DNA of 64,000 nucleotides. Origin: Deltaproteobacteria bacterium. Its GTDB lineage: Bacteria; Desulfobacterota; Desulfobacteria; Desulfobacterales; SpSt-501. The notes below the pieces were generated by a model, which saw nothing but the letters and a program-made list of their open reading frames with translations, made no database searches and was not told the origin of the DNA. A program made the position numbers and the translations under genes. Where the stretch lies: the NCBI GenBank assembly GCA_016219005.1, contig JACRCN010000084.1, positions 1-64,000 on the forward strand, in the 5' to 3' direction. Positions 1,404-24,904 of the stretch are shown in pieces (position 1 is the stretch's first letter; the number at the start of each line of letters is the position of its first letter).

Positions 1404-2376
1404 GATGACCATGGTGCAGGCCCTGAATCTGGCGCTGCGGCAGGAGATGGAAAAGGACGACAGCGTCATCGTTTTGGGCGAGGACGTCGGTGTTGACGGC
1501 GGCGTCTTTCGCGTGACCGACGGCCTGCTCCAAGCCTTCGGGGAGAGCCGCGTAGTGGACACCCCGCTCGCGGAATCCGCCATCGCGGGCATGTCCATCG
1601 GCATGGCTGTCTACGGGTTGAAGCCGGTCTGCGAAGTGCAGTTCGACGGGTTCAGCTACTACACCATGCACCAGATCGAAGCGCATGCATCGCGTCTGCG
1701 CGGGCGCTCCCAGGGACGGTACCATGTGCCCATGGTCCTGCGGGCGCCTTACGGCGGCGGCGTGCGCGCCCTGGAGCATCACTCCGAGAGCCGCGAGGTC
1801 TTTTGGGCGCACATCCCGGGCCTCAAGATGGTGATCCCATCCGGCCCCCGCAACGCCCGGGCCCTGCTGGTTGCCGCCATCCGCGACCCGGACCCCGTCA
1901 TTTTCTACGAGCCCAAGGCCGTTTACCGGGCTTTCCGCGAGGAGGTTCCCGAGGAGGAAGAGACCTTCCCGATCGGGAAGTCCCAGCGCGTGCGCGAAGG
2001 CCGGGACCTCACCCTGATCGCCTACGGTGCGATGATGCGGCCGACGCTGGAGGCAGCCGAGGAACTCAAGCAAAAGCACGGAGTCGAGGCCGAGGTTATA
2101 GATCTCTTGACGATTTCGCCCCTGGACGATTCCCTCCTCGTGGAATCCGCACGAAAAACCGGGCGCGTGGCCGTGGTGCACGAGGCACCTCGCAGTTTCG
2201 GGCCGGGGGCCGAAGTTGTGGCCCGTCTGGTGGAGAAGGCCTTTTTCCACCTCGAGGCCCCGGTGGCCCGGGTGACCGGTTATGACGTACTCATCCCGCT
2301 GTTCAGTCGTGAACAATACTACCTGCCGGGGGTTGCCCGCATCATCGACGCGGCCCGGAAACTGCTATCGGCGTAA
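1396..2376 (+). CDS. pdhB: Pyruvate dehydrogenase E1 component, beta subunit
   Basis: Beta subunit of the heterotetrameric E1 of the 2-oxoacid dehydrogenase complex, 326 residues, the usual length. The N-terminal pyrimidine-binding domain is recognisable from the LGEDVGVDGGVFRVTDGL segment near residue 30 and the conserved ESAIAGMSIGMA stretch; the C-terminal transketolase-like domain contains VIDLLTISPLD and EAPRSFGPGAEV. The start overlaps the end of the alpha subunit and has AGAAGGAGG immediately upstream. The E2 gene begins 12 bases after the stop. Together with the alpha subunit it forms the TPP site at the interface. Confidence 0.94.
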   Translation: MPKMTMVQALNLALRQEMEKDDSVIVLGEDVGVDGGVFRVTDGLLQAFGESRVVDTPLAESAIAGMSIGMAVYGLKPVCEVQFDGFSYYTMHQIEAHASRLRGRSQGRYHVPMVLRAPYGGGVRALEHHSESREVFWAHIPGLKMVIPSGPRNARALLVAAIRDPDPVIFYEPKAVYRAFREEVPEEEETFPIGKSQRVREGRDLTLIAYGAMMRPTLEAAEELKQKHGVEAEVIDLLTISPLDDSLLVESARKTGRVAVVHEAPRSFGPGAEVVARLVEKAFFHLEAPVARVTGYDVLIPLFSREQYYLPGVARIIDAARKLLSA

Positions 2377-2388
2377 AAGGAGGCGATC

Positions 2389-3678
2389 ATGGCCAAGGAG
2401 TTCAAGCTCCCGGACCTGGGGGAAGGAATCCACGAAGGGGAGGTGCTGGCGGTGCGGGTCAGCGTTGGGCAGGCGGTTAAGGAAGGCGACATCATCCTGG
2501 AGGTGGAAACCGACAAGGCCGCTGTGGAAATCCCCTCCCCGTACACCGGCACCGTTCTCGAGGTCCTCGTCAAGCCCGGTGACACGGTCAAGGTGGGGCA
2601 GGTGCTGATGGCCTTCTCCGCGCCCGGGGAAAAATCCGCGGCCGTCTCCGAATCGGCCGCAGCGGTCCCAAAGGCGGCCACCGTGCCGGAGCAGGCCGCC
2701 GCCTCCCAGGCCCCCGGCCCGCGGCCAGGGCCGGTCCCAGCCTCGCCGGCCACCCGTCGCCTGGCCCGCGAGTTGGGCGTGGACCTGGCGCTGGTACCCC
2801 CCAGCGGCGCGGCGGGTCTGGTCAACGCCGAGGACGTGCGGGCGTTTGCCGCGCGCGGCAAAGCCATGGAAGGCCCGGCGGTTGCGCGTCCGCAACCGGC
2901 TGCAGAAAGCCCTGCACCCACTCCCGAGCGCACGCCGGAGAAGACCGATTTCTCAAAGTGGGGCCCGGTGGAGCGGGTTCCCTTCCGGTCCATCCGCCGG
3001 GCCACGGCCAAACAGATGAGCCAGGCCTGGTCCCAGATCCCCCACGTGACCAGCCAGGATTACGTGGACGTCACCCGGCTCGAAGTCTTCCGCCGAAAGC
3101 ACAAGAAGGACGTTGAAGCGCTCGGCGGGCGTCTGACGTTCACCGTTTTCGCGCTCAAGGCCGCGGCGACGGCCCTGAAGGCCCATCCCCGGATGAACGC
3201 CAGCCTGGACACGGCCGCCGGCGAGATGGTCCTGAAAAAGCACTACCACATCGGGGTGGCCGTGAACACCGAAGATGGGCTCGTCGTCCCGGTGGTGCGC
3301 AACGTCGACAACAAGAGCATCAAAGAGCTCGCCGTCGAGCTCCATGCACTCGTGCAAAGAGCCCATGCACGCAAGATCGGCCTGGAAGAGTTCCAGGGCG
3401 GGACGTTCACCATCACCAATGCCGGCGCGCTCGGGGGATGGACGTTCGCGCCGATCATCAACCATCCGCAGGTCGCGATCCTGGGGCTCGGACAGGGACG
3501 GCTTCAGCCGGCAGTTGTCAGAGGGGAAAAAGGCCTGGCGATCGCCCCACGGCTTATCATGCCCGTGGTGCTGTGCATCGATCACCGGTTGCTGGACGGG
3601 GCCGATGCCGTGAACTTCCTGAAGATCTTCATGCAGATCATGGGAGACCCCGACGAGTTGCTCATGTCCCTAGTCTGA
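2389..3678 (+). CDS. pdhC: Dihydrolipoamide acetyltransferase (E2 of pyruvate dehydrogenase complex)
   Basis: Core of the complex: accepts the acyl group on a lipoyl lysine and transfers it to CoA. The 429-residue protein has one N-terminal lipoyl domain (residues about 4-78, with lipoylated Lys43 in ETDKAAVE), an Ala/Pro-rich linker, a peripheral subunit-binding domain (about 120-160, ATRRLARELGVDL), a second linker, and the catalytic domain ending in the HRLLDGADA motif whose His and Asp perform transacetylation. AAAGGAGG precedes the ATG. One lipoyl domain is typical of bacterial branched-chain-type and Gram-positive-type E2s. Confidence 0.93.
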   Translation: MAKEFKLPDLGEGIHEGEVLAVRVSVGQAVKEGDIILEVETDKAAVEIPSPYTGTVLEVLVKPGDTVKVGQVLMAFSAPGEKSAAVSESAAAVPKAATVPEQAAASQAPGPRPGPVPASPATRRLARELGVDLALVPPSGAAGLVNAEDVRAFAARGKAMEGPAVARPQPAAESPAPTPERTPEKTDFSKWGPVERVPFRSIRRATAKQMSQAWSQIPHVTSQDYVDVTRLEVFRRKHKKDVEALGGRLTFTVFALKAAATALKAHPRMNASLDTAAGEMVLKKHYHIGVAVNTEDGLVVPVVRNVDNKSIKELAVELHALVQRAHARKIGLEEFQGGTFTITNAGALGGWTFAPIINHPQVAILGLGQGRLQPAVVRGEKGLAIAPRLIMPVVLCIDHRLLDGADAVNFLKIFMQIMGDPDELLMSLV

Positions 3679-3726
3679 TCCACTTTCGGATTTACTATTT
3701 TCAAGTTCTTCATCGGAGGCATAACC

Positions 3727-5157
3727 ATGGTCATGGGTGAACTGTCACAGGACGCGGATCTGCTGGTGATCGGCAGCGGACCCGGTGGGTATGCCGCCGC
3801 GTTCCGCGCCGCCGATCTCGGTCTGGATGTGACCCTGGTGGACACGGCTCCCCGGCCGGGCGGCGTCTGCCTCTACACGGGCTGCATTCCGTCCAAGACC
3901 TTTCTGTTTCTCTCCGAGCTGATCTTCGATGCCGCCCGGGCCAAGGCCATGGGCGTCGCCTTCGATCCCCCGCGGGTCGACCTGGCAGGCCTGCGGCGCT
4001 GGAAGGCGGAGGTGATCGAAAAGATGGCCGGTGGCCTGATGAGCCTGACCAAACGCCGCGGGGTTCAGCTCCTCGGCGGGCGGGCCGAGTTCGAGTCCTC
4101 GGAGAGCGTGCGGCTGCACGACGCAGAGATCAGCCGCATCCGCTTCCGGCATGCCATCATTGCCAGCGGCTCCCGCCCCATCCCCTTTCCCGGCACGGAG
4201 TTCAGCGCCGGCCGCCGGGTCATGAGTTCCAGCGGCGCGCTCGCGCTCGCGGACATACCGGCATCGCTGCTCATTCTGGGCGGCGGGTATGTCGGGCTCG
4301 AGCTGGGCACGGTGTACGCCGCCCTCGGCAGCCGGGTGAGTCTCGTGGAGATGCAGGACCGGCTCCTGCCGGGTGTGGACGCGGATCTGGTCGAGCCATT
4401 GCAGCAGCGCTTGAAGACGATTTTTTCCGACATCTGGTTGAACACACGAGTCAAAAGCCTGCGGGAGGATGAGGCCGGGGTGGCGGTGAGCCTGGAGGGC
4501 GCGGGTGTTGCGCCCGAGCAGCGTTTCGACCGCGTGCTGGTGGCCATCGGGCGAAAACCCGACACCCAGGAGTTGGGCCTTGCGCACACGCGCGTGCAAC
4601 TGGACGCCAAGGGATTCATCCAGGTGGACGGGCAGCAGCGCACGGCGGATGAGCGCATCTTCGCCGTCGGCGATGTCGTCGGCGGCATGATGCTCGCCCA
4701 CAAGGCCAGCTACGAAGGCAAGGTGGCCGCCGAAGTGCTCGCCGGCAAAACCTCTTCCTTCGACGTGCGCGCCATCCCGGCCGTGGTCTACACCGACCCT
4801 CAGATCGCCTGGTGCGGCATCACCGAGGAGCAGGCACGGCGTGAGAACCTGCCCGTGAAGGTACAGCGGTTTCCGTGGAAATTCTCCGGCCGCGCCACCA
4901 CCATGGGCGCACCCGAAGGGTTGACCAAGATCATCGCCGACGCCGAATCCGGAAGGATCCTCGGGGTCGGCATCACCGGCCGCGACACGGAAGGGCTGAT
5001 CTCGGAAGGCGTCCTGGCCATCGAGATGGGCGCGCTTGCCGAGGACATGGCCGCCAGCATACACCCCCATCCCACGCTTTCTGAAACCGAGGGCGAAGCC
5101 GCCGAGCTCTTTCTCGGCCACGCCACGCACATTATGGGGAAGGAAAAGAAAAAATAA
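3727..5157 (+). CDS. lpdA: Dihydrolipoyl dehydrogenase (E3)
   Basis: FAD enzyme that reoxidises dihydrolipoamide with NAD+, closing the cycle of the 2-oxoacid dehydrogenase complex. In 476 residues it shows the FAD-binding GSGPGGYAAAF near residue 16, the redox-active disulfide Cys48/Cys53 in GGVCLYTGC, the NAD-binding GGGYVGLELG, the FAD motif AVGDV, and the C-terminal HPHPTLSE whose His-Glu pair is the catalytic acid/base. GGAGG sits 8 bases before the chosen ATG; a second ATG two codons later is possible. It follows the E2 gene by 48 bases and closes the operon. Confidence 0.94.
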   Translation: MVMGELSQDADLLVIGSGPGGYAAAFRAADLGLDVTLVDTAPRPGGVCLYTGCIPSKTFLFLSELIFDAARAKAMGVAFDPPRVDLAGLRRWKAEVIEKMAGGLMSLTKRRGVQLLGGRAEFESSESVRLHDAEISRIRFRHAIIASGSRPIPFPGTEFSAGRRVMSSSGALALADIPASLLILGGGYVGLELGTVYAALGSRVSLVEMQDRLLPGVDADLVEPLQQRLKTIFSDIWLNTRVKSLREDEAGVAVSLEGAGVAPEQRFDRVLVAIGRKPDTQELGLAHTRVQLDAKGFIQVDGQQRTADERIFAVGDVVGGMMLAHKASYEGKVAAEVLAGKTSSFDVRAIPAVVYTDPQIAWCGITEEQARRENLPVKVQRFPWKFSGRATTMGAPEGLTKIIADAESGRILGVGITGRDTEGLISEGVLAIEMGALAEDMAASIHPHPTLSETEGEAAELFLGHATHIMGKEKKK

Positions 5158-12031: not shown

Positions 12032-13306
12032 ATGACGATGCTGTTCGATCACATCATGATTCTGCTGATCCTGGTGGCGCTTTCGGCTTTCTTTTCCGCG
12101 GCCGAAACCGCCCTGTTTTTGATCAGCATGGACAAGGCCATTCATCACGGTGCGGAGACGGGCCGGGTCTACACCCTCATTCAGCGGATGAAGAAGGACC
12201 CGGATCGGTTCCTGAGCACCATTCTGCTCGGGAACACTCTGGTGAATATGTCGGCTGCCTCCCTGGCCACGGCCGTCACCTTGGACATGGTGCCCGAGCA
12301 TGCGCTGGCGATCGCCATAGGCGCCGCGACGTTCGTGATCCTCGTTTTCGGTGAAGTTTTCCCCAAGTCGATCGCTGCCCGCAACGTCACCCTCATCGCG
12401 CGGATCGTCATCGTGCCGATCGACGGACTCTCCAAACTGCTTTACCCGGTCGTGCTGGCATTGAACCTCATTCCCAACACGATGGCCCGCATTCAGAGAA
12501 AACCGAAGCTCACGGAGTCAGAACTCCTCTCCATCGTGGAAGCCGGCGAGGCGGAAGGGCAGATCAACGAGGAGGAAAAAGAGCTGATACACAACATTTT
12601 TGAGCTCGACGACACAAGCGCATCCGAGATCATGACGCCTCGGGCGGACATGTTCGTCGTCGATGTCAACGAGCCGCTCGATCGGCCCGAGCTTTTCAAG
12701 TCCGGCTTCACCCGGATCCCCGTCATCGACGGCGACATCGATCATATCATAGGCATTTTGAACATCAAGGACCTGCTGTGGCACCCGTCGGGCGGCGGGC
12801 CGCCCGTGGACATCCGAAAGATCATGCGCGAGCCCTATTTCGTGCCGGAGCACAAGAAGCTGAACCACCTGCTCAAGGGGTTTAAAAAACGCAAGCAGCA
12901 CATGGCCATCGTGGTGGATGAGCACGGCGGGGTGTCGGGCCTGATCACGCTGGAAGACGCCCTTGAGGAGATCGTCGGCGAAATCATCGACGAGACCGAC
13001 ACGTTCGAGCCGCCGATCGTCCGGGTAAGCGCCAACGAGTGGCGGGTGATGGGAAAAACGGGGATCGAAGAGGTCAACGACGCGCTCCTGATGAACATCC
13101 CCGACACCGGCGAATACGACACCTTCTCCGGCTACGTCCTGAACTTGATCGGCCGGATCCCCCGGGAGGGGGAGCAAATCGACATCGGCGCGTTCACCGT
13201 GGTCGTCAAGGAGCGGGAGGGCAACCGCATCGTCGAGTATCTCGTGCGCAGGATTGACTCCCCCGCAGCCCCCGAGAGCACTGCTGCACCCGCCGCTTTT
13301 AGTTGA
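12032..13306 (+). CDS. CNNM/CorC-type hemolysin-family membrane protein with CBS domains
   Basis: 424-residue inner-membrane protein: N-terminal DUF21/CNNM domain with four hydrophobic segments (residues about 5-170), a tandem CBS pair (about 190-335; IMTPRADMFVVDVNEPLD and MAIVVDEHGGVSGLITLEDALEEIVGEI), and a C-terminal CorC_HlyC transporter-associated domain (from about 345; NEWRVMGKTGIEEVN). The family is linked to Mg2+/Co2+ efflux. An earlier in-frame GTG exists at 11996, but the ATG at 12032 opens the first membrane helix directly. Its stop overlaps the HU stop by 8 bases tail to tail. Confidence 0.88.
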   Translation: MTMLFDHIMILLILVALSAFFSAAETALFLISMDKAIHHGAETGRVYTLIQRMKKDPDRFLSTILLGNTLVNMSAASLATAVTLDMVPEHALAIAIGAATFVILVFGEVFPKSIAARNVTLIARIVIVPIDGLSKLLYPVVLALNLIPNTMARIQRKPKLTESELLSIVEAGEAEGQINEEEKELIHNIFELDDTSASEIMTPRADMFVVDVNEPLDRPELFKSGFTRIPVIDGDIDHIIGILNIKDLLWHPSGGGPPVDIRKIMREPYFVPEHKKLNHLLKGFKKRKQHMAIVVDEHGGVSGLITLEDALEEIVGEIIDETDTFEPPIVRVSANEWRVMGKTGIEEVNDALLMNIPDTGEYDTFSGYVLNLIGRIPREGEQIDIGAFTVVVKEREGNRIVEYLVRRIDSPAAPESTAAPAAFS

Positions 13307-13568
13307 CGGCGTCCTTGAGGGCTTTGCCCGCCACGAACTTGGGGGCTTTGGAGGCGCTGATTTTGATTTCCGCGCCGGTCTGCGGGTTGCGGCCTATGCG
13401 CGCTTTGCGTTTGACCACCTTGAAGGTCCCGAAGCCCACCAGGGTGACCACGTCATCCTTTTTCAGCGCTTGGCTGATGGATTCTAAAACGCAATCCACC
13501 GCGGCCTGAGCTTCCTTCTTGGTGCTGACGACATTCGCCACTTCGTTGATCAGATCTGCCTTGTTCAT
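13299..13568 (-). CDS. hup: HU family DNA-binding protein
   Basis: 89-residue nucleoid protein: MNKADLINEVANVV start, DNA-binding arm around RKARIGRNPQTG (the RNPxTG tip with its intercalating proline) and C-terminal FVAGKALKDAV helix. The frame is open upstream, but the ATG at 13568 gives the exact family length. HU binds and bends DNA as a dimer. A small zinc-ribbon gene and dksA lie upstream on the same strand. Confidence 0.94.
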   Translation of the reverse strand: MNKADLINEVANVVSTKKEAQAAVDCVLESISQALKKDDVVTLVGFGTFKVVKRKARIGRNPQTGAEIKISASKAPKFVAGKALKDAVN

Positions 13569-13654
13569 GGATGTCCCTTTCTTCGCATGGAGTTTGAAGT
13601 TGAATACCGGCTGAGAACCATATGGGTGTTGCGTTTCCCGATCGGGGCTCGCGC

Positions 13655-13867
13655 CTATATGCTGTCGCGGCAGCTTTGACAATATTTCCGGGGCGTGCCC
13701 CGGCCGATCCAATGAAAGTTCATGATGTGTTTTTTGCCGCATTTCGGGCACACGCATTCCACTTTGCTCTTGTCGTGGTCGATCACGGTTTCGGGCTCTT
13801 CGCTGATGATCGCCTGGGAGGGTTTCGCGACGGATTTTTTCGAAGCACTGCGTTTGGCGGATGGCAT
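13655..13867 (-). CDS. Small zinc-ribbon protein, hypothetical
   Basis: 70 residues: a basic Ser/Lys-rich head (MPSAKRSASKKSVAK), an acidic middle, then a C-terminal zinc ribbon CPKCGKKHIMNFHWIGRG...CQSC with two CxxC knuckles. GGAG is placed 7 bases before the ATG at 13867. It lies between hup and dksA on the same strand, so may be a small nucleic-acid-binding protein. The family is not recognised beyond the ribbon. Confidence 0.7.
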   Translation of the reverse strand: MPSAKRSASKKSVAKPSQAIISEEPETVIDHDKSKVECVCPKCGKKHIMNFHWIGRGTPRKYCQSCRDSI

Positions 13868-13967
13868 AAAAACACTCCATGGATGCTCACGGTGACGCAC
13901 GGCCCGCTCGGTGTTCGGCGGTTGCGCGATGATGTTTCAGGGCGGTTCCGGATCTGCGCTGCGCCCA

Positions 13968-14330
13968 TCAGGTCCCGGTCTGTTTCTCCATGGCCTCCAT
14001 CTGAGTTTTGCAGCGGATGCAGTGGTGGGTGACGGGCCGCGCTTTAAGGCGTTCGACGGAAATGTCTTCCCCACAGGACTCGCAAATGCCGTACACTCCC
14101 TCTTTGATGTCTTCCAGGGATTGGCGGATTTTCTTGATCAGCATGCTTTCGCGGTCGCGGATCCGCAGGGTGAAGTTGCGTTCGGAGTCGAAAACGGCCC
14201 GGTCCAGCGGGTCCGGAAGATTTTCGTCGACTTCCCTCAAGCCGGTCATCGTGCTGTCGGCATGGCGCGACAGCTCCTCCAGCCAGCGGGTGAGGAGTTC
14301 CTTGAAATATTTAAGGTCTTTGTCTTTCAT
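13968..14330 (-). CDS. dksA: DksA/TraR-type RNA polymerase-binding transcription factor
   Basis: 120-residue secondary-channel regulator of RNA polymerase working with ppGpp. The coiled coil spans residues about 5-70; the tip carries PDPLDRA, corresponding to the DxxDxA acidic tip of DksA. The C4 zinc finger is CESCGEDI with a following CIRC. Length and arrangement fit DksA rather than the shorter TraR. The gene is transcribed away from the PilZ-like gene. Confidence 0.92.
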   Translation of the reverse strand: MKDKDLKYFKELLTRWLEELSRHADSTMTGLREVDENLPDPLDRAVFDSERNFTLRIRDRESMLIKKIRQSLEDIKEGVYGICESCGEDISVERLKARPVTHHCIRCKTQMEAMEKQTGT

Positions 14331-15177: not shown

Positions 15178-15315
15178 GCCCCCCATTCCCCGCGGGTGCA
15201 AAACCGGACGGGCGCTGGCGCCGGTTCGCGGCGAAGACGGACCGCGCGAGGCTTCCGCTACGGACCCGCCGGTGTCATGGTGGCGTTTATTTCCTGCGGA
15301 TGAGGCAAGCAGACC

Positions 15316-16170
15316 ATGAAGCGTCACCCCTTTCTGAATATTGTGTGGAACCTTTGCATGCTTACCGCCGGCAGCATCCTCTGTGCCGTTGCCCTCAATG
15401 GGATTCTGATTCCGAACCAGTTTCTCTCGGGCGGTGTGAGCGGACTGAGCCTGTTCATTTACTATCTGTTCCCATTCATGCCGGTGGGGGTTTCCAATTT
15501 TCTCTTGAACATCCCGCTCTTCCTGGTGGGCTGGCTATTCGTCGGCCGGCGCTTTTTCTTTTTCAGCCTGGCGGGGATGACGATTTTCTCGCTGGCCCTC
15601 TTTATCCCCGTCCCGGTCTTGCCCATCCGCGACCCTGTGCTGAATGCGCTGACGGCCGGGATCATCTCGGGCATCGGTAGCGGAATCATTCTGAAGTCCG
15701 TCGGTTCGGGCGGAGGGCTGGACATTCTCTCCGTCATCCTGCTCAAGCGGTTTTCCATCCGGATCGGCACCACCGTCATGGGCTTCAATGCCGTCCTGAT
15801 GCTGGCCGCCCTGTTCCGGTTCAACCTCGAAATCGTTCTGTACACGCTCATTTACCTGTTTGTCACGTCCCAGCTCGTCGACCTGGTGGTCACCGGGCTC
15901 AACCAGCGCAAGGCCGTGATGGTGGTCTCGTCCCAATGGCAGGCGATTGCGCACGAGATCATGGAGAACATGCATCGCGGAGTGACCATCGTCAACGGCG
16001 AAGGGGGCTACACCGGGCAGAAGCTGCGGATCCTCTATGCGGTCATCACCTTCCAGGAACTCTCCCGGTTCAAGGAGATGATCCGGCAGCTGGACCCCGA
16101 CGCGTTTGTGGTGGTGGCTGAAACGGTTGAGGTGATGGGCAAGGGCATCGGCAACCAGCCCCACTGGTAA
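15316..16170 (+). CDS. YitT family membrane protein (DUF161/DUF2179)
   Basis: 284-residue inner-membrane protein. About five to six hydrophobic helices (residues 10-190; e.g. AGSILCAVALNGILIPNQF, GVSGLSLFIYYLF) form the YitT domain, with the conserved SGGGLDILSVIL motif. The C-terminal soluble DUF2179 domain (about 200-284) includes HRGVTIVNGEGGYTGQ and ends MGKGIGNQPHW. The family's transport substrate is not established. GATGAGG lies about 12 bases upstream of the ATG. Confidence 0.9.
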   Translation: MKRHPFLNIVWNLCMLTAGSILCAVALNGILIPNQFLSGGVSGLSLFIYYLFPFMPVGVSNFLLNIPLFLVGWLFVGRRFFFFSLAGMTIFSLALFIPVPVLPIRDPVLNALTAGIISGIGSGIILKSVGSGGGLDILSVILLKRFSIRIGTTVMGFNAVLMLAALFRFNLEIVLYTLIYLFVTSQLVDLVVTGLNQRKAVMVVSSQWQAIAHEIMENMHRGVTIVNGEGGYTGQKLRILYAVITFQELSRFKEMIRQLDPDAFVVVAETVEVMGKGIGNQPHW

Positions 16171-16486
16171 AAACGGCCCTAAGAAGCCATTTAACGCCCG
16201 ACAGCTGCGTTGTCCCGCGTCACGTACGAACGTGTACGCTCCGCTTTCAAACTGCGGGACACCTTGCTCCCAGGCGCGATCTGGGCTTTTAGAGTCGTTA
16301 CAAAAGCCGTGCAACGCCTGATCGCGGCATGTCCGGAAATTGCGGCCGACACTTTGGTCGGCTTCAGATAGCGGAACTCTCGGAGTTGAACCGGATCGTC
16401 GGTGATGGAACCGACCACTCTTGTTCGAGCGCAGCCCGGTTCACCGACAGCAAGTCGTCATAGATGCGGCGGATGCGAAACATGTC
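16171..16486. other. Intergenic palindrome-rich region
   Basis: 316 bases with nested inverted repeats: GTCCCGC (16212-16218) with GCGGGAC (16254-16260), enclosing CACGT-ACGA-ACGTG (16221-16234), then CCCAG (16269-16273) with CTGGG (16281-16285) followed by CTTTT. It looks like a dispersed palindromic intergenic element and may also end transcription from both convergent genes. No gene seen. Confidence 0.4.
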
Positions 16487-17506
16487 TCAAGAGGGCTTCT
16501 TGCGGGTATCGCTGAGAATGCGTTCCACCGCGCCGGCGTAACTGATGCCGGAAGCATCCAGGGCGGCGGCAAATCCGGCATCCGGCGAGAGACAGGGATT
16601 GGCGTTGATTTCAAGAATCCATGGCCGGCCGGCGGGATCGATCCGGAAATCCACCCGGGCATACCCATTCAACCCGAACAGCCGCCAGCACCGCAGGGCC
16701 AGGTCGCGCAGGCGTGCGAGCAGAGCCGCATCTTCCGGCGGAAAATCGAACCGGCGCGGGGTGTGGTGGAACTCGTAGGAGCCTGAATCCCACTTGGCGC
16801 GGTAGCCGACAATCTTAAGCGTGCGGTCGGCGTAGCCCTCGAAGAGGATCTCCGCCGGGGAGAGCACCTGCGGTCCGCACGGCGCGGCGAGCAGCGCGAG
16901 ATTGAACTCGCGGCCGTCGATGAAGCGCTCCGCGAAACAGGCCCCGCCCAGGCGGGGCGCACGCTCCCGCAACAGCGTTGCCGCGCGGTCCGCGCGGTCG
17001 CAGAGAAGATCGGTCTTCTCATCCAGGCCGATCGATGCGTGCTCCCATACGGACTTGACGATCCACATCGCATCCGGCGTTTCGGCCGGGTGCACCGCCG
17101 CAGGCGGCAGGTTCGGGATATCCTCCGGGTAGGGGCCGATCCAGGGCGGCGTCGGCAGGTGCGCGGCCGCCAGGCGTTGTTTGGCGAGGACCTTGTGCGA
17201 GGTCAGGCACATGGCCTCCGCGCAGGCACCGGTGTACGGCACGTTGAGCGCGTCCAGCAGCGACGGGATCACATGGATCAGGCGGCCCTTGCCGTCCAGG
17301 GATTCCACGATGTTGAAGACGAGATCCGGCCGCAGGTCCGCCAGGCGGCGTTTGACCTCGGAGAGGTCCAGGGTGCAGGGGAGCGTAACGGGTTCGTGTC
17401 CGAGCGCGCGGAGTGCCGCCTGGACCGATTCGGCCTGGATCAGAACGTCGCGTTCGTCCGGGGCATCGTCGTCGGCGACGGCGTTGTGAACGATGGCTAC
17501 GCGCAT
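16487..17506 (-). CDS. D-alanine-D-alanine ligase-like ATP-grasp enzyme (second ligase of KamA operon)
   Basis: 339-residue ATP-grasp protein of the Ddl type, forming an amide bond through an acyl-phosphate. N-terminal domain MRVAIVHNAV...DERDVLIQAESV and DLVFNIVESLDGKG; central ATP-grasp lid; C-terminal metal-binding signature DFRIDP...WILEINANPCLSPDAGFAAAL, where the ExN and late acidic residues coordinate Mg-ATP. The start overlaps the upstream ligase's stop by 10 bases. It differs from true Ddl in its N-terminal binding region, and it sits in a KamA operon rather than a mur cluster, so another amino-acid substrate is inferred. Confidence 0.82.
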   Translation of the reverse strand: MRVAIVHNAVADDDAPDERDVLIQAESVQAALRALGHEPVTLPCTLDLSEVKRRLADLRPDLVFNIVESLDGKGRLIHVIPSLLDALNVPYTGACAEAMCLTSHKVLAKQRLAAAHLPTPPWIGPYPEDIPNLPPAAVHPAETPDAMWIVKSVWEHASIGLDEKTDLLCDRADRAATLLRERAPRLGGACFAERFIDGREFNLALLAAPCGPQVLSPAEILFEGYADRTLKIVGYRAKWDSGSYEFHHTPRRFDFPPEDAALLARLRDLALRCWRLFGLNGYARVDFRIDPAGRPWILEINANPCLSPDAGFAAALDASGISYAGAVERILSDTRKKPS

Positions 17507-18510
17507 GGGTCGGGCCGCGTTTTGAGCGGCAGGACCCGTTGCCCGGCCGAAGCGAGTATCCGCGCGATCAGGCGCTCGAAGGAGACCCCCACGAGGCCGC
17601 AGATGATGGGCAGATCGGAGTGCTCGGGGTGCAGCCCGGCCAGGGGGTTTACCTCGATGAACTGCGGCCGGCCGCGTTTGTCGCAGCGCAGGTCGAGGCG
17701 ACCCGCGTCCCGGCAGCCGAGTACCCGCCAGGCGCGCAGGGCAATGTCCTCGACGGCGGCCACCAACGGGTCGTCGGCCGGCTGTACGAGCCGGTAGCGC
17801 ACCAGTGCTTCAAAGTTTTCCTTGTTGTGGTAGGAATAGACTTGCGGTTCGGCGGCGGCCAGCAGCAGAACCTCCATGGTGCCCAGCACTTCTGCCTGGC
17901 GACCGGTTCCGATCACGGCCGTCGTGAACTCCCGCCCGGGCAGAAATCGTTCCACCAGTACCGGCTGCCGGTAGGTCTCGATCAGCAGACGGCAGGCTTC
18001 CGGCAGGTCCTTGCGGCGGCGGACGATGGATTTCGGCGAGACGCCTTTGCCCGTGCCCTCGGCCACGGGTTTGACGAAATAGGGCGGACCGAAGCGAACC
18101 TGCGCGGTTTCGTCCGGGTGCTCAACCACGGTAAAGTCGCAGGTTGGTACGCCGGCGTCGCGGATGACCCGCTTGGTCATGCCCTTGTGCAGGGTCAGGC
18201 TCATGACCAGCGGGTCCGAGAAGGTGTAGGGGATTTCGTAGGCATCGAGAAGAGCGGGGATCTGCGCCTCGCGTCCGATCCCGATCATCCCCTCGGCGAT
18301 GTTGAAGACTAGATCCCAGCGGCGGCCGGCCGCGAGGCGTTCCACCAACTGCAACGCATTACCGACCCGGTCGGTTTCGTGGCCGAGGCGCTGCAGCGTG
18401 GCGTCGATGGCATCAATCGTTTCTTCGCGGTCAAACTCCGCGGTCTCGTCTTCCGTGTACCCGCGCGCGAGGTATTCGGACCGCAGGTCGTAGGTCAGGC
18501 CGATGCGCAT
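17497..18510 (-). CDS. D-alanine-D-alanine ligase-like ATP-grasp enzyme (first ligase of KamA operon)
   Basis: 337 residues. Starts MRIGLTYDLRSEYLARGYTEDE, a head unlike peptidoglycan Ddl, then WDLVFNIAEGMIGIGREAQIPALLD (substrate-loop region, with NIAEG), a Gly-rich ATP loop EGTGKGVSPKS, and RLDLRCDKRG...EVNPLAGLHPEHSDLPI, the metal-binding strand. The ATG at 18510 has GGAGAACG before it; the longer frame overlaps kamA and is not coding. The gene lies 16 bases after kamA and overlaps the next ligase. The two ligases are paralogs of similar length but clearly divergent, suggesting sequential or two-component ligation. Confidence 0.82.
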   Translation of the reverse strand: MRIGLTYDLRSEYLARGYTEDETAEFDREETIDAIDATLQRLGHETDRVGNALQLVERLAAGRRWDLVFNIAEGMIGIGREAQIPALLDAYEIPYTFSDPLVMSLTLHKGMTKRVIRDAGVPTCDFTVVEHPDETAQVRFGPPYFVKPVAEGTGKGVSPKSIVRRRKDLPEACRLLIETYRQPVLVERFLPGREFTTAVIGTGRQAEVLGTMEVLLLAAAEPQVYSYHNKENFEALVRYRLVQPADDPLVAAVEDIALRAWRVLGCRDAGRLDLRCDKRGRPQFIEVNPLAGLHPEHSDLPIICGLVGVSFERLIARILASAGQRVLPLKTRPDPCA

Positions 18511-18526
18511 GGGGGCGTTCTCCGCG

Positions 18527-19852
18527 TCACGCCCCCACCACATCCGGGTAGCGGTATTGCCGGTCGCAATAGTTGCGCAGCAGCAGCATGTCGCCGTCGC
18601 GGCCCTCGACGTAGTTCGGCATGAGCGGGATCTTGCCGCCGCCGCCGGGGGCGTCGATGACATACGTGGGCACGGCGTAGCCGCTGGTGAATCCCCGCAG
18701 GCCGCGGATGATCTCGAGACCCTTCTCGACCGGGGTGCGGAAGTGGCCCGATCCGGTGATCGGGTCGCACTGGTAGATGTAATAAGGCCGTACGCGCATT
18801 CGCAGCAGATGATGGCAGAGTGCCTTCATGGTCTCGACGTTGTCGTTGATGCCTTTGAGCAATACGCTCTGGGAACCCAGGGGGATGCCGGCGTTCGCCA
18901 GCCGTTCACAGGCCCGATAGGCTTCCGGCGTGCACTCGGCCGGGTGCGTGAAGTGCAGGCTCATCCACAGCGGGTGGTGGCGGCGCAGCATGCGGACCAG
19001 GTTGGGCGTGATGCGCTGCGGCAGCACGGCCGGGATTTTGGTGCCGATGCGCAGGATTTCCACGTGAGGAATCTCGCGCAGCCGCGACAGCAGCCAGTTC
19101 AGGCGCTCGTCGTTCAGGGTCAGCGGGTCGCCGCCGGAGATCAGAACGTCGCGCACCGTGGGGGTCGACCGGATGTACTCGATCGCCCGCTCCAGGCGCG
19201 AACGGCTGGGATAGATGGCGCCGTGGCCGACCACGCGCGAACGCGTGCAATACCGGCAGTAGGTGGAGCAGAAATCAAGCACGAGCAGCAGCACGCGATC
19301 GGGGTAGCGATGGACCAGACCCGGCACCGGGCTCATGGAATCTTCGCTCAGCGGGTCTTCGGCCTCCCCGGGGGTGGTGACGAATTCGGCCGTCGTGGGC
19401 ACCACCGTCCGGCGCAGAGGGTCGTTCGAATCCTCCTTGGACAGCAGGCTCATGAAGTAGGGCGTGATGCCGACCGGCAGTCTGGACTGGATCATTTCGA
19501 TCGCCGCGCGTTCTGCTTCGGAGAGTTTCAGCATCCGCTCGAGCGGGTCGATGTGACGGATCCTGTGCCGGATCTGCCATTGCCAGTCGTTCCATTCCTT
19601 GTCGGTAACGGCGGGGAAAAATGCGCGGCGAAAGGCATTCGCCTTTAAGTTCGAGACGGGGCGTGACCGAGATGCCGGGAAGACAGAGACTTTACTTTTT
19701 AAACGGGGCGTTATTTCCGGTAGGGGTACTACATTTTCCAGACAAACTGCTGGACTGGGAGGCTCTTCGTCGTTTTCTCCTGCCAACTCACCCGCTGATC
19801 CCGGCACCGTTGAATTAGCAGGACTGCGAAAACTTGCCGCATCCGTTTTCAT
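18527..19852 (-). CDS. kamA: KamA family radical SAM aminomutase (lysine 2,3-aminomutase-like)
   Basis: 441-residue radical SAM and PLP enzyme. The 4Fe-4S cluster is held by Cys195, Cys199 and Cys202 (CSTYCRYC). The PLP lysine is in APGGGGKIP; the aspartate seven residues before it and the one in YQCDPITGSGHFRTP correspond to the residues that hold the lysine side-chain amine in clostridial lysine 2,3-aminomutase, so lysine is the likely substrate and beta-lysine the product. About 80 N-terminal residues are low-complexity. ATG at 19852 is preceded by AAGGAGAT at a rather long spacing; an upstream in-frame ATG at 19903 is less likely. First gene of an operon with two ATP-grasp ligases. Confidence 0.87.
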   Translation of the reverse strand: MKTDAASFRSPANSTVPGSAGELAGENDEEPPSPAVCLENVVPLPEITPRLKSKVSVFPASRSRPVSNLKANAFRRAFFPAVTDKEWNDWQWQIRHRIRHIDPLERMLKLSEAERAAIEMIQSRLPVGITPYFMSLLSKEDSNDPLRRTVVPTTAEFVTTPGEAEDPLSEDSMSPVPGLVHRYPDRVLLLVLDFCSTYCRYCTRSRVVGHGAIYPSRSRLERAIEYIRSTPTVRDVLISGGDPLTLNDERLNWLLSRLREIPHVEILRIGTKIPAVLPQRITPNLVRMLRRHHPLWMSLHFTHPAECTPEAYRACERLANAGIPLGSQSVLLKGINDNVETMKALCHHLLRMRVRPYYIYQCDPITGSGHFRTPVEKGLEIIRGLRGFTSGYAVPTYVIDAPGGGGKIPLMPNYVEGRDGDMLLLRNYCDRQYRYPDVVGA

Positions 19853-20322
19853 TGGAATACAGAATCTCCTTTCTTTTTGTAGGCTATGGGTTGATGTCGA
19901 CAACCAAATGACTTGAAGCTGAGAGAATTCATAGCTATACTGAAACTATCCGCAAACTGTGTGTGTGGCTCCTCCCTAATAAGTAATTATTGTTAACGGG
20001 GCCGACATTCTCATTGTGTATTTCATGTTACAGATGCTCAAAATCCCCTGCATATGGTGTACTGGTGGCAACCGTAATACAAAATATCGCGCGTGTCAAT
20101 AAAAATTTTTGAACTCAAAAAACCATTTTTTTTGAGTTCTGTCAAACAATTATACAACATTGGGCCGCAACTTTCAAAGAATTTTTCGGGTTAAGGCCCC
20201 AGATCTGCCCTTTTCAGTGTCGGATGCTTCTTATCCGCACCCTGTTAAAAGGTGATTATCGCCATAAACGGAAGAATCTTGAATGCAATTCGCGTCCGAA
20301 CAGAAAAAAGGAGGGAATTCAA
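19853..20322. other. AT-rich divergent intergenic region
   Basis: 470 AT-rich bases between kamA (minus) and the CBM48 protein (plus). They contain the hairpin at 20111-20139; no gene is seen. The base composition is well below the neighbouring genes. Confidence 0.4.
20111..20139. terminator. 12-bp AT-rich hairpin, terminator-like in both directions
   Basis: GAACTCAAAAAA (20111-20122) pairs perfectly with TTTTTTGAGTTC (20128-20139) around a five-base loop. A-tract and T-tract arms allow termination on either strand. Its place between divergent genes would suit attenuation or insulation, or it could be an operator. Confidence 0.45.
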
Positions 20323-20616
20323 ATGGCCCGAACCGCTAAGAAGAAAGATCCCAAGCGTCGCCGCATCGAATTCGTATTGGAAATGCCCCAGGCCGAGCAG
20401 GTCATTCTAATGGGAGATTTCAACGAGTGGAACCCCAAGACGCACCCGATGCGCAAGGACAAACACGGGGTCTGGCGCAAAAGGGTGATGATCTTCCCCG
20501 GCCACTACGAATATCGGTTCTGGGTGGACGGGGAGTGGTACAACGACCCTCACAACCCGCTGATATGCCCCAATTGCTTCGGGAGCGAGAACAATGTGAT
20601 CGAAGTGGCGCCTTGA
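20323..20616 (+). CDS. CBM48 (isoamylase N-terminal/AMPK glycogen-binding-like) domain protein
   Basis: 97 residues forming a single glycogen-binding-type beta-sandwich: basic head MARTAKKKDPKRRRIEF, then QVILMGDFNEWNPKTHPMRKD and GVWRKRVMIFPGHYEYRFWVDGEW, followed by NDPHNPLICPNCFGSENNVIEV. The W/F/Y pattern matches CBM48 modules of AMPK beta and branching enzymes, here free-standing. GGAGGG lies 8 bases before the ATG at 20323; the longer frame upstream is not needed. Probably binds alpha-glucans or serves a regulatory role. It is convergent with lon. Confidence 0.85.
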   Translation: MARTAKKKDPKRRRIEFVLEMPQAEQVILMGDFNEWNPKTHPMRKDKHGVWRKRVMIFPGHYEYRFWVDGEWYNDPHNPLICPNCFGSENNVIEVAP

Positions 20617-20723
20617 TCGAGCAGACCCGCACGTTCCAATCCAACAGGGGCCTGCTGCATGGCTGCGTGCATTTACTGCACCGTGCCCCTGCGGTACACG
20701 CCGCGTTTCCCTGACCTCTCGAA

Positions 20724-23081
<2,358 letters not shown>

Positions 23082-23748: not shown

Positions 23749-24696
23749 TTACAGCTCTTCCGGCGTGAACGCCACGACCTCGTCGATGGCGGCGGCGTCG
23801 GTGAAGAGCATCACGAGCCGGTCGATGCCGAGCGCGTTGCCGGCACAGGGGGGCATATGCGCCAGGGCGGCGAGGAATTTTTCCGGCAGGCGATGAACCG
23901 GCGCGCCGCGCGCCTGCATGAGCGCCTGTTCGGCGGCAAAGCGCCGCCGCTGCTCGGGCGCGTCGTTCAACTCGCTGAAGCCGTTGCACAGCTCCAGGCC
24001 ACCGATGTAAAGCTCGAAGCGCTCGGCAACAGAGGAATCTCCCGGTTTGAGGCGTGCTAGGGACCCGTGCTCGGCCGGGTAGTCATGCAGGAAAACGGGC
24101 CGATCCAGCCCGAGCCGCGGCTCGATCTCCAGTCCCATGACCGCATCGAAGCGGCCCTGGGCGAGGGCTGCCGGCATGGACAGCGACCCGTGGCGCGCGA
24201 ACGCGTCGGCCACGGTGAGCCTTTCCCAGGGCGGCGCGAGGTCGATCGGCCGGCCCTGGTAAAGGATGCTTCGGCCGGCCCCCAGTCCCTGGGCGATATG
24301 CAGAACCAGCTCCTCGCAGCGCGTCATGAGCTCGCGGTAGGTCTCCCCGACGGCATACCACTCGAGCATCGTCATCTCCGGCAGATGCCGCCTGCCGCGT
24401 TCCGCCTTGCGGAAGCACTTGCAGATCTGAAAAATCTTTTCATGGCCCGCCGCCAGCAGCCGCTTCATGCAGATTTCCGGGGAAGGCTGCAACACCCAAC
24501 CGTCCGCCGCGATGAGCTCGATGTGGGCCTCGGGCAGAGGTACCGGTATGCGAACGGGGGTCTCAACCTCGAGGTAGCCGCCTTCGGCAAAGAAGGCGCG
24601 CACCCAACGCAAAAGATCGGCCCGTAGCGCCAGGCTCGTGCTGCGGTGCGCATGTCGGACATTAGGCAAGCTGTTATTTTTCAATGATATGTCCAT
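23749..24696 (-). CDS. epmA: Elongation factor P (R)-beta-lysine ligase EpmA (PoxA/GenX)
   Basis: 315-residue class II aminoacyl-tRNA-synthetase paralog lacking a tRNA-binding domain; it attaches (R)-beta-lysine to a lysine of EF-P. Motifs seen: RWVRAFFAEGGYLEVETPVRIP (motif 1), CFRKAERGRRHLPEMTMLEWY (motif 2), and the motif 3 region AGNALGIDRLVMLF. The exact start is unsure because no clear Shine-Dalgarno precedes 24696; other in-frame ATGs reach 24762. The known partner EpmB is a KamA-like enzyme, and a KamA gene lies about 4 kb away. The upstream side abuts an integrase remnant. Confidence 0.9.
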   Translation of the reverse strand: MDISLKNNSLPNVRHAHRSTSLALRADLLRWVRAFFAEGGYLEVETPVRIPVPLPEAHIELIAADGWVLQPSPEICMKRLLAAGHEKIFQICKCFRKAERGRRHLPEMTMLEWYAVGETYRELMTRCEELVLHIAQGLGAGRSILYQGRPIDLAPPWERLTVADAFARHGSLSMPAALAQGRFDAVMGLEIEPRLGLDRPVFLHDYPAEHGSLARLKPGDSSVAERFELYIGGLELCNGFSELNDAPEQRRRFAAEQALMQARGAPVHRLPEKFLAALAHMPPCAGNALGIDRLVMLFTDAAAIDEVVAFTPEEL

Positions 24697-24709
24697 TCGC
24701 GTTTTGCAT

Positions 24710-24904
24710 TTACTTCCCAGCGTTGATGCTGGAGTGTGCCCTTCGCGGGCGTTCATTTTCATCCATGTCCTTGGGGTGCAGCTTGTCGTGGAACAGCATT
24801 AACTGCCTGATCCAACCGTAATAGGCGTTTTCGGTTTGGATGGAATAGCGGTTTTTGCGGATTTCGGTTCTGATCCGGTCCAGTAGCGTCAAGGCTACTC
24901 TCAT
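24710..24904 (-). pseudogene. intI: Integron integrase remnant (N-terminal SAM-like domain only)
   Basis: A 64-codon frame whose first 47 residues match the N-terminal core-binding segment of IntI tyrosine recombinases: LLDRIRTEIRKNRYSIQTEN followed by AYYGWIRQLMLFHDKLHPKDM. After HPKDM the similarity stops; the tail is unrelated and the catalytic domain with the RHRRY residues is absent. The orientation, divergent from the attC site and cassette ORF downstream at 25164 onward, is that of a true integron. Non-functional. Confidence 0.72.

Follow-up and report, generated by a model that had tools for sequence, protein, structure and literature searches.

The window analyzed here, the first 64,000 nucleotides of contig JACRCN010000084.1 (assembly GCA_016219005.1), carries a minus-strand operon encoding KamA, a radical S-adenosylmethionine/pyridoxal phosphate (PLP) enzyme resembling lysine 2,3-aminomutase, and two ATP-grasp ligases. 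The host, an uncultured relative of sulfate reducers, probably possesses part of a pathway that leads from lysine through beta-lysine to a conjugate, served by the two ligases and an acetyltransferase. We favor, with moderate confidence, a reading in which the operon encodes the core enzymes of an intracellular pathway and the product is an N-acetylated amide of beta-lysine (a peptide or a polyamine conjugate). The first operon gene encodes KamA (P0001, 441 amino acids [aa]; 18527..19852, ATG at 19852) and is followed by the genes for ATP-grasp 1 (P0002, 337 aa; 17497..18510, ATG at 18510) and ATP-grasp 2 (P0003, 339 aa; 16487..17506, ATG at 17506). All three open reading frames are intact, with the tight packing described in the original prediction, which was made from the sequence of the window (a 16-base gap after KamA and a 10-base overlap between the ligase genes).

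Conservation and sequence features of the operon

Orthologues of ATP-grasp 1 in GTDB genomes served as bait, and the 80 named loci (L numbers) are the best 80 of at least 568, which biases the conservation counts toward close relatives. The hidden Markov models used to map the loci were built in this analysis from few seeds. Names of metagenome-assembled genomes are given as deposited (some are possibly misbinned), and several of loci L028 to L047 represent the same contigs as named loci. Whether the three genes are conserved as a unit was a question raised by the original prediction, and the best 80 loci answer it affirmatively: KamA was found upstream of ATP-grasp 1 in 76 (at most 1,021 bases between models) and ATP-grasp 2 downstream in 75 (at most 221 bases). 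A GNAT-family acetyltransferase was present in 66 of these loci and a deacetylase in 38. For the 47 loci with at least 3 kb of upstream and at least 5 kb of downstream sequence, the corresponding numbers were 45, 44, 41, and 24. The unit of KamA and two ATP-grasp enzymes is real and widespread, and it occurs in several phyla; record titles among the best 80 loci include Desulfobacterales, Syntrophaceae, Planctomycetota, Acidobacteria, Calditrichaeota, and one Nitrococcus. Among the matches listed, the ATP-grasp 1 of L064 ("Desulfobacterales bacterium isolate Prado111") is 85% identical to the window copy. Desulfatitalea alkaliphila (L058) and Desulfosarcina cetonica (L082) are carriers that have been cultured.

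Genome sampling gave a broader view of this distribution. ATP-grasp 1 or a close relative was retrieved from 140/395 sampled genomes of the window's phylum (E value of 1e-60) and from 34/294 sampled genomes of the phylum of L101, a planctomycete locus (E value of 1e-90). In the former sample, KamA was detected at an E value of 1e-90 in 133/140 genomes with ATP-grasp 1, compared to 71/255 without it. Across 40 related genomes (the window genome included), the KamA subfamily of the operon occurred in 21, of which 20 encode a full-length ATP-grasp 1 and the last retains a 64-aa piece. The KamA subfamily, ATP-grasp 1, and the GNAT were found in none of the remaining 19. A protein with a CxxCxxCC motif recurs between KamA and ATP-grasp 1 in 25/101 stretches.

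The window KamA scored 360.6 bits against the general KamA model TIGR00238 (cutoff, 199.2), slightly below the cutoff of the AblA equivalog TIGR03820 (495.4 versus 525.4), and below that of the EpmB model (257 versus 369.3). Eleven positions were compared with clostridial lysine 2,3-aminomutase (2a5h) over 109 aligned rows, comprising hits longer than 300 aa, with some contigs present twice (as named and unnamed loci). The three cysteines of the CxxxCxxC motif, Lys337, Asp293, Asp330, Arg112, Arg116, and Arg134 were kept in the window and in 109/109 rows. Retention of the 4Fe-4S cysteines, the PLP lysine, and both lysine-recognizing aspartates had been predicted for the window enzyme and was found in every row; we take these to be the three cysteines, Lys337, and the side-chain-binding pair Asp293/Asp330, respectively. 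Judging by these conserved residues, KamA would convert L-lysine to beta-lysine.

In a KamA tree whose 18 rows from genomes lacking ATP-grasp 1 were picked by score, a 45-row set (support, 99/92) unites the core operon KamAs with unlinked KamAs from genomes in which the ligases are linked to a decarboxylase (see below). This set also takes in seven linked rows from divergent loci and L226, whose genome gave no match to ATP-grasp 1; the other 17/18 sampled rows from such genomes fall outside it. Four of these KamAs adjoin a true AblB. As a separate observation, KamA of L147 (a gene pair at 3078-4133 and 2169-3014) adjoins a third, RimK-like ATP-grasp enzyme, a relative of which occurs in the decarboxylase-linked locus L139.

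Both ligases match the Pfam family Dala_Dala_lig_C (94 bits for ATP-grasp 1 and 52.8 bits for ATP-grasp 2; cutoff, 24). Their best scores against NCBIfam models of D-Ala-D-Ala ligase (Ddl) were 156 and 97.1, respectively, versus 243, and lay below every Ddl cutoff shown. Predicted structures (predicted local distance difference test scores of 91.9 and 90.0) had Ddl as the closest solved fold (Z scores of 32.1 and 31.6), suggesting that both ligases adopt the Ddl fold, as expected for the family. A ligase tree of 127 rows was built by a quick method without bootstrap; it covers 22 of the best 80 named loci, leaves out L029 to L031, and carries a long-branch warning at the window genome's own Ddl. 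In this tree, ATP-grasp 1 (39 rows) formed one clade and Ddl from the same order (9 rows) another, with support of 100 each, while 34/35 core ATP-grasp 2 rows formed one set (support, 100) and the last joined these together with three divergent rows (support, 99). By this phylogeny, neither ligase belongs to the Ddl clade, in keeping with the divergence from Ddl originally predicted. A canonical Ddl is encoded on another contig (C83) of the window genome.

Residues were examined in the 39 ATP-grasp 1 and 35 ATP-grasp 2 core rows. The nine ATP/Mg/phosphate positions of Ddl are kept in 39/39 and 35/35 rows, respectively, whereas several of the positions that we take to line the D-Ala site (Glu15, His63, Ser150, Tyr216, Ser281, and Leu282, in E. 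coli DdlB numbering) are altered. The His63 position is Glu in 74/74 rows. The Tyr216 position is likewise replaced in 74/74 rows (Glu in 33/39 ATP-grasp 1 rows and Trp in 35/35 ATP-grasp 2 rows), as is that of Leu282 (Asp in 39/39 and Gly in 35/35), and Ser150 is replaced in 73/74. The six-residue D-Ala-site pattern of Ddl was thus not found in these ligases. The new acidic residues at the substrate site would suit amine-rich substrates.

Several other ATP-grasp arrangements were observed. L130 and L131 contain tandem ATP-grasp 1-like pairs; in one copy of each pair, the conserved Glu in place of His63 is lost, along with other marked residues. Another Ddl-like ATP-grasp family, with the motif FNWC and a long branch of its own, occurs in the window genome and three others of the genus (L157, L168, L169, and L171). 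A single open frame in L162 (1257-3296) combines a methyltransferase-like part (named by eye) with a Ddl-like ATP-grasp.

The acetyltransferase, the deacetylase, and control of the operon

The original prediction held that the operon has no acetyltransferase, which proved incorrect: a GNAT is a regular partner in relatives, and the window genome retains both a remnant and an intact unlinked homologue. In the same-genus genomes L028 and L029 (cut at contig end), ATP-grasp 2 is followed by a gene for a protein of ∼750 aa. The L028 protein consists of an N-terminal part without a Pfam match (GNAT-like by eye), a histone-deacetylase-family domain (PF00850, 250.9 bits), and a C-terminal GNAT. Pieces of this fourth operon gene persist in the window on the minus strand at 16302..16483, with matches to codons 1 to 21 at 16421-16483 and to codons 212 to 251 at 16302-16421 in another frame; the remainder is gone. 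By tblastn to the L028 protein, the two pieces scored 38.9 and 48.1 bits, compared to a best of 24.6 in 200 mononucleotide shuffles. Contig C35 (5141-5644) encodes an intact homologue (169 aa) of that C-terminal GNAT. Thus, the window genome has a decayed fourth gene in the operon and carries its GNAT on a separate contig, so that KamA, both ATP-grasp enzymes, and a GNAT are found in one genome with the GNAT off the operon. Contamination was considered as the source of the C35 copy and is countered by two same-genus genomes, in which the GNAT and the larger gene near it on C35 both have homologues that lie close together.

Among the 40 related genomes, the partner GNAT occurred in 20/21 with the operon KamA subfamily and in 0/19 without it (14/15 versus 0/19 when counted by genus). 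In 3 of the 21, it was absent from the operon yet present elsewhere. The 64 GNAT matches above 90 bits in the best 80 loci share an open frame with the deacetylase (n = 30) or with ATP-grasp 2 (n = 10), stand alone (n = 22), or lie in frame with another GNAT piece (n = 2). The GNAT belongs to the pathway, a partnership seen in both linkage and co-occurrence. Five of the partner GNATs, including the C35 copy, were run against the AblB model TIGR03827 without a match and gave only weak matches to models such as RimI.

The deacetylase is closest to acetylpolyamine amidohydrolases. Aligned to 9gkz, the L028 domain has the HH dyad (presumably catalytic), the Asp/His/Asp set (presumably the zinc ligands), and the Tyr that we assume to be part of the active site, as expected of an amidohydrolase. 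This domain is absent from the window. Own-genome matches consist of three longer ones at 35 to 39% identity and one 62-residue piece at 47%, and the deacetylase subfamily of the operon therefore seems lost here. The deacetylase is optional within the unit. Deacetylase or ATP-grasp 2 matches fall in two pieces in L082, L070, L106, and L112, perhaps through frameshifts or sequencing errors.

The best sigma-70-like promoter match upstream of KamA lies at 20149..20177 on the minus strand (TTGAAA-17-TATAAT, 11/12), a consensus match only; positions 15300-20800 contain three promoter-like sites of that quality, versus a mean of 1.1 in shuffles. Riboswitch control was considered and dropped, as Rfam gave no match at the gathering score in the six sources searched and none in 19800-20320 even at an E value of 1.

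Proposed pathway and competing explanations

In the pathway that we favor, KamA would turn L-lysine into beta-lysine, and the two Ddl-fold enzymes would successively make two amide bonds, using ATP to generate an acyl phosphate for each. To one or both of these bonds, beta-lysine would contribute either its carboxyl group or an amine, and the dedicated GNAT may acetylate an amino group on the product or on a pathway intermediate. In about half of relatives, the extra GNAT-like domain and the acetylpolyamine-amidohydrolase-type deacetylase, mostly in one polypeptide, could act as a protecting-group or turnover module. There is a precedent for such a pair, as PMC2922099 proposes, for other systems, that a lysine amine is blocked by acetylation before amide formation. 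The locus maps (100 loci, named by eye) showed no transporter recurring at a fixed place beside the genes; thus, the product probably stays in the cell, where it could serve as a solute or a polyamine-like cation. The original prediction of a beta-lysine di- or tripeptide or conjugate stands in outline, in that beta-lysine would be joined by amide bonds; a peptide is one option, and the context of divergent loci makes a polyamine partner possible.

Several observations weigh against this pathway. Among the 47 well-flanked loci, a nearby GNAT is absent from six, ATP-grasp 2 from three, and KamA from two, and 7/140 genomes with ATP-grasp 1 in the phylum sample lack KamA at an E value of 1e-90. 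At two KamA positions, 202 (Arg to Lys) and 228 (Asn to Ser), the window and nearly all core rows depart from 2a5h. Of the KamAs linked to divergent loci, 13/20 lie outside the 45-row set, so the aminomutase may have been exchanged or its product may differ. The ligases retain Glu15 of Ddl in 39/39 ATP-grasp 1 and 24/35 ATP-grasp 2 rows and Ser281 in 39/39 and 6/35, respectively, indicating that the D-Ala site has been rebuilt in part only. An ABC-ATPase-like cluster (named by eye) lies at scattered positions in 9/100 loci, making export possible. Furthermore, the substrates and products given for the enzymes are predicted.

A special case of the favored pathway, set against the peptide case, is that putrescine or homospermidine is attached to beta-lysine by at least one of the ligases, with the GNAT and deacetylase setting the acetylation state; we regard this as possible but well short of probable. 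Forty divergent loci were chosen from the lower-scoring ATP-grasp 1 places of the phylum sample. KamA was in the stretch in 21 and a pyruvoyl arginine decarboxylase was upstream of ATP-grasp 1 and 2 in 12, with both in none; the remaining 7, some at contig ends, have neither. Of the 12 decarboxylase-linked loci, 8 include an agmatinase and 9 a SpeY-type homologue of deoxyhypusine synthase, with the NCBIfam check of this context limited to L139 and L144. KamA is encoded elsewhere in all 12 genomes, and the decarboxylase association is therefore one of linkage only; in the unlinked KamA neighborhoods viewed (10/12 plus one more genome, by eye), no obvious acetyltransferase adjoined KamA. Ligases placed behind homospermidine genes, together with KamA kept elsewhere, make a beta-lysine-polyamine conjugate possible. 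The kinship of the deacetylase to acetylpolyamine amidohydrolases agrees with this, as do an arginase-family gene (13265-14116) directly after the KamA/ATP-grasp/deacetylase/GNAT operon of L111 and, on another contig of the window genome, SpeY-type and agmatinase-type genes with a weak decarboxylase match (37.9 bits). Beta-lysine contains a 1,4-diamine like that of putrescine, which fits a shared substrate theme and proves nothing.

Conversely, L111 is the only one of 101 core stretches with polyamine genes nearby, and the GNAT is absent from the locus in 4/12 decarboxylase-linked cases. A single ATP-grasp 1 clade holds both contexts with nearly identical marked residues; hence, the link may reflect shared regulation only. 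Residues separating the two contexts were sought and the idea abandoned: a few columns differ, but the KamA-linked rows in that clade are mostly of the decarboxylase type there. Two related ideas were also rejected. KamA and arginine decarboxylase are not alternative inputs, as all 12 decarboxylase-linked genomes have both. Nor do beta-lysine peptides appear to replace polyamines, because 16/21 genomes with the operon KamA gave an nspC match or encode a homologue of SpeY; within the window genus, SpeY is present in 7/7 genomes. More speculative still is a new class of bacterial polyamine derivatives spanning several phyla, in which acetyl-tunable beta-lysine-polyamine conjugates would be made by two Ddl-derived ligases and turned over by a deacetylase akin to eukaryotic polyamine and histone deacetylases.

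It is unlikely that KamA instead supplies beta-lysylation of elongation factor P (EF-P), leaving the ligases to serve something else. An EpmA-like EF-P lysine/beta-lysine ligase is encoded on the minus strand at 23749..24762, outside the conserved unit and ∼3.9 kb upstream of KamA (intervening genes named by eye). It scores above the cutoff of TIGR00462 (316.5 versus 286.9 bits) and below that of PRK09350 (242.4 versus 264), and its neighborhood is shared by two other genomes of the genus. The window genome has one KamA-family match, so no separate EpmB was seen; taken with the nearby EpmA, this means that KamA could also serve EF-P, a further point against an exclusive role in the ligase pathway. 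However, KamA is below the EpmB cutoff, and among the 200 other stretches searched, EpmA turned up only in three stretches from two same-genus genomes and, with 34% identity, in L181. In contrast, KamA accompanies ATP-grasp 1 in other phyla, and use by EF-P would not explain why KamA and the ligases stay together there. The window KamA may feed two users, the ligase pathway and EF-P.

We consider it slightly less likely again that the product is the osmolyte N-epsilon-acetyl-beta-lysine, with the GNAT acting directly on beta-lysine, as in the AblA/AblB system, and a side product coming from the ligases. The pairing of KamA with an acetyltransferase follows the AblA/AblB plan, and PMC9337991 lists beta-lysine and acetylated beta-lysine among archaeal and bacterial osmoprotectants. 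Nevertheless, the tested partner GNATs have no AblB match and the window KamA is below the AblA cutoff, whereas in relatives without ATP-grasp 1, AblB stands beside KamA in 4/4 loci tested (302.9 to 337.5 bits). These pairs, with AblB above the cutoff, are in L218, L219, L220, and L223; AblA reached 770 bits in the one tested. Finally, cell-wall or resistance ligases making altered D-Ala-D-X ends are very improbable: the Ddl fold, the Pfam family, the mostly kept Glu15, and the Ser281 of ATP-grasp 1 would suit them, but the nine same-order Ddl rows form a clade apart from both ligases (support of 100 in a quick tree with long branches flagged), the canonical Ddl is on contig C83, and His63 and Leu282 are replaced in 74/74 core rows.

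The N-acetylated beta-lysine amide that we favor as the product would be made by an apparently undescribed pathway. An open-access literature search found no description of the unit, although a 2009 amidoligase survey in Mol BioSyst (Iyer, Aravind, and colleagues) may mention it. With ATP-grasp 1 or a close relative in 140/395 and 34/294 sampled genomes, the product may be a nameless metabolite that is common in bacteria. The unit provides a set of genes that can be put to the test, two clades of ligases whose substrate site has changed, and perhaps a connection of beta-lysine with polyamines, and its product is now a concrete target to look for.

Relation to known systems

The system shares with AblA/AblB a lysine 2,3-aminomutase, a GNAT, and a likely small intracellular product. 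It differs in its two ATP-grasp ligases, in a KamA that lies outside the sampled AblA rows and under the AblA cutoff, and in a GNAT without an AblB match. With Ddl, the ligases have in common the fold and the ATP/Mg site, while their separate clades, scores below Ddl cutoffs, and several replaced D-Ala-site residues set them apart. EpmB/EpmA likewise draws beta-lysine from a KamA homologue, and EpmA is present in the window; in contrast, this KamA is below the EpmB cutoff and its linkage to EpmA was seen in the window genus only, among the stretches searched.

Synthesis of N-acetylglutaminylglutamine amide also combines an ATP-grasp and a GNAT in one chain, comparable to the open frame shared by the two in 10 of the best 80 loci here. 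There, glutamine is the amino acid and the GNAT occupies the N terminus, whereas here the GNAT is C-terminal and KamA is present. Lastly, the SpeDA/SpeB/SpeY homospermidine clusters (PMC10407285) resemble the divergent loci in which decarboxylase, agmatinase, and SpeY genes lie beside the ligases, although the main text of that article contains neither "ATP-grasp" nor "ligase."

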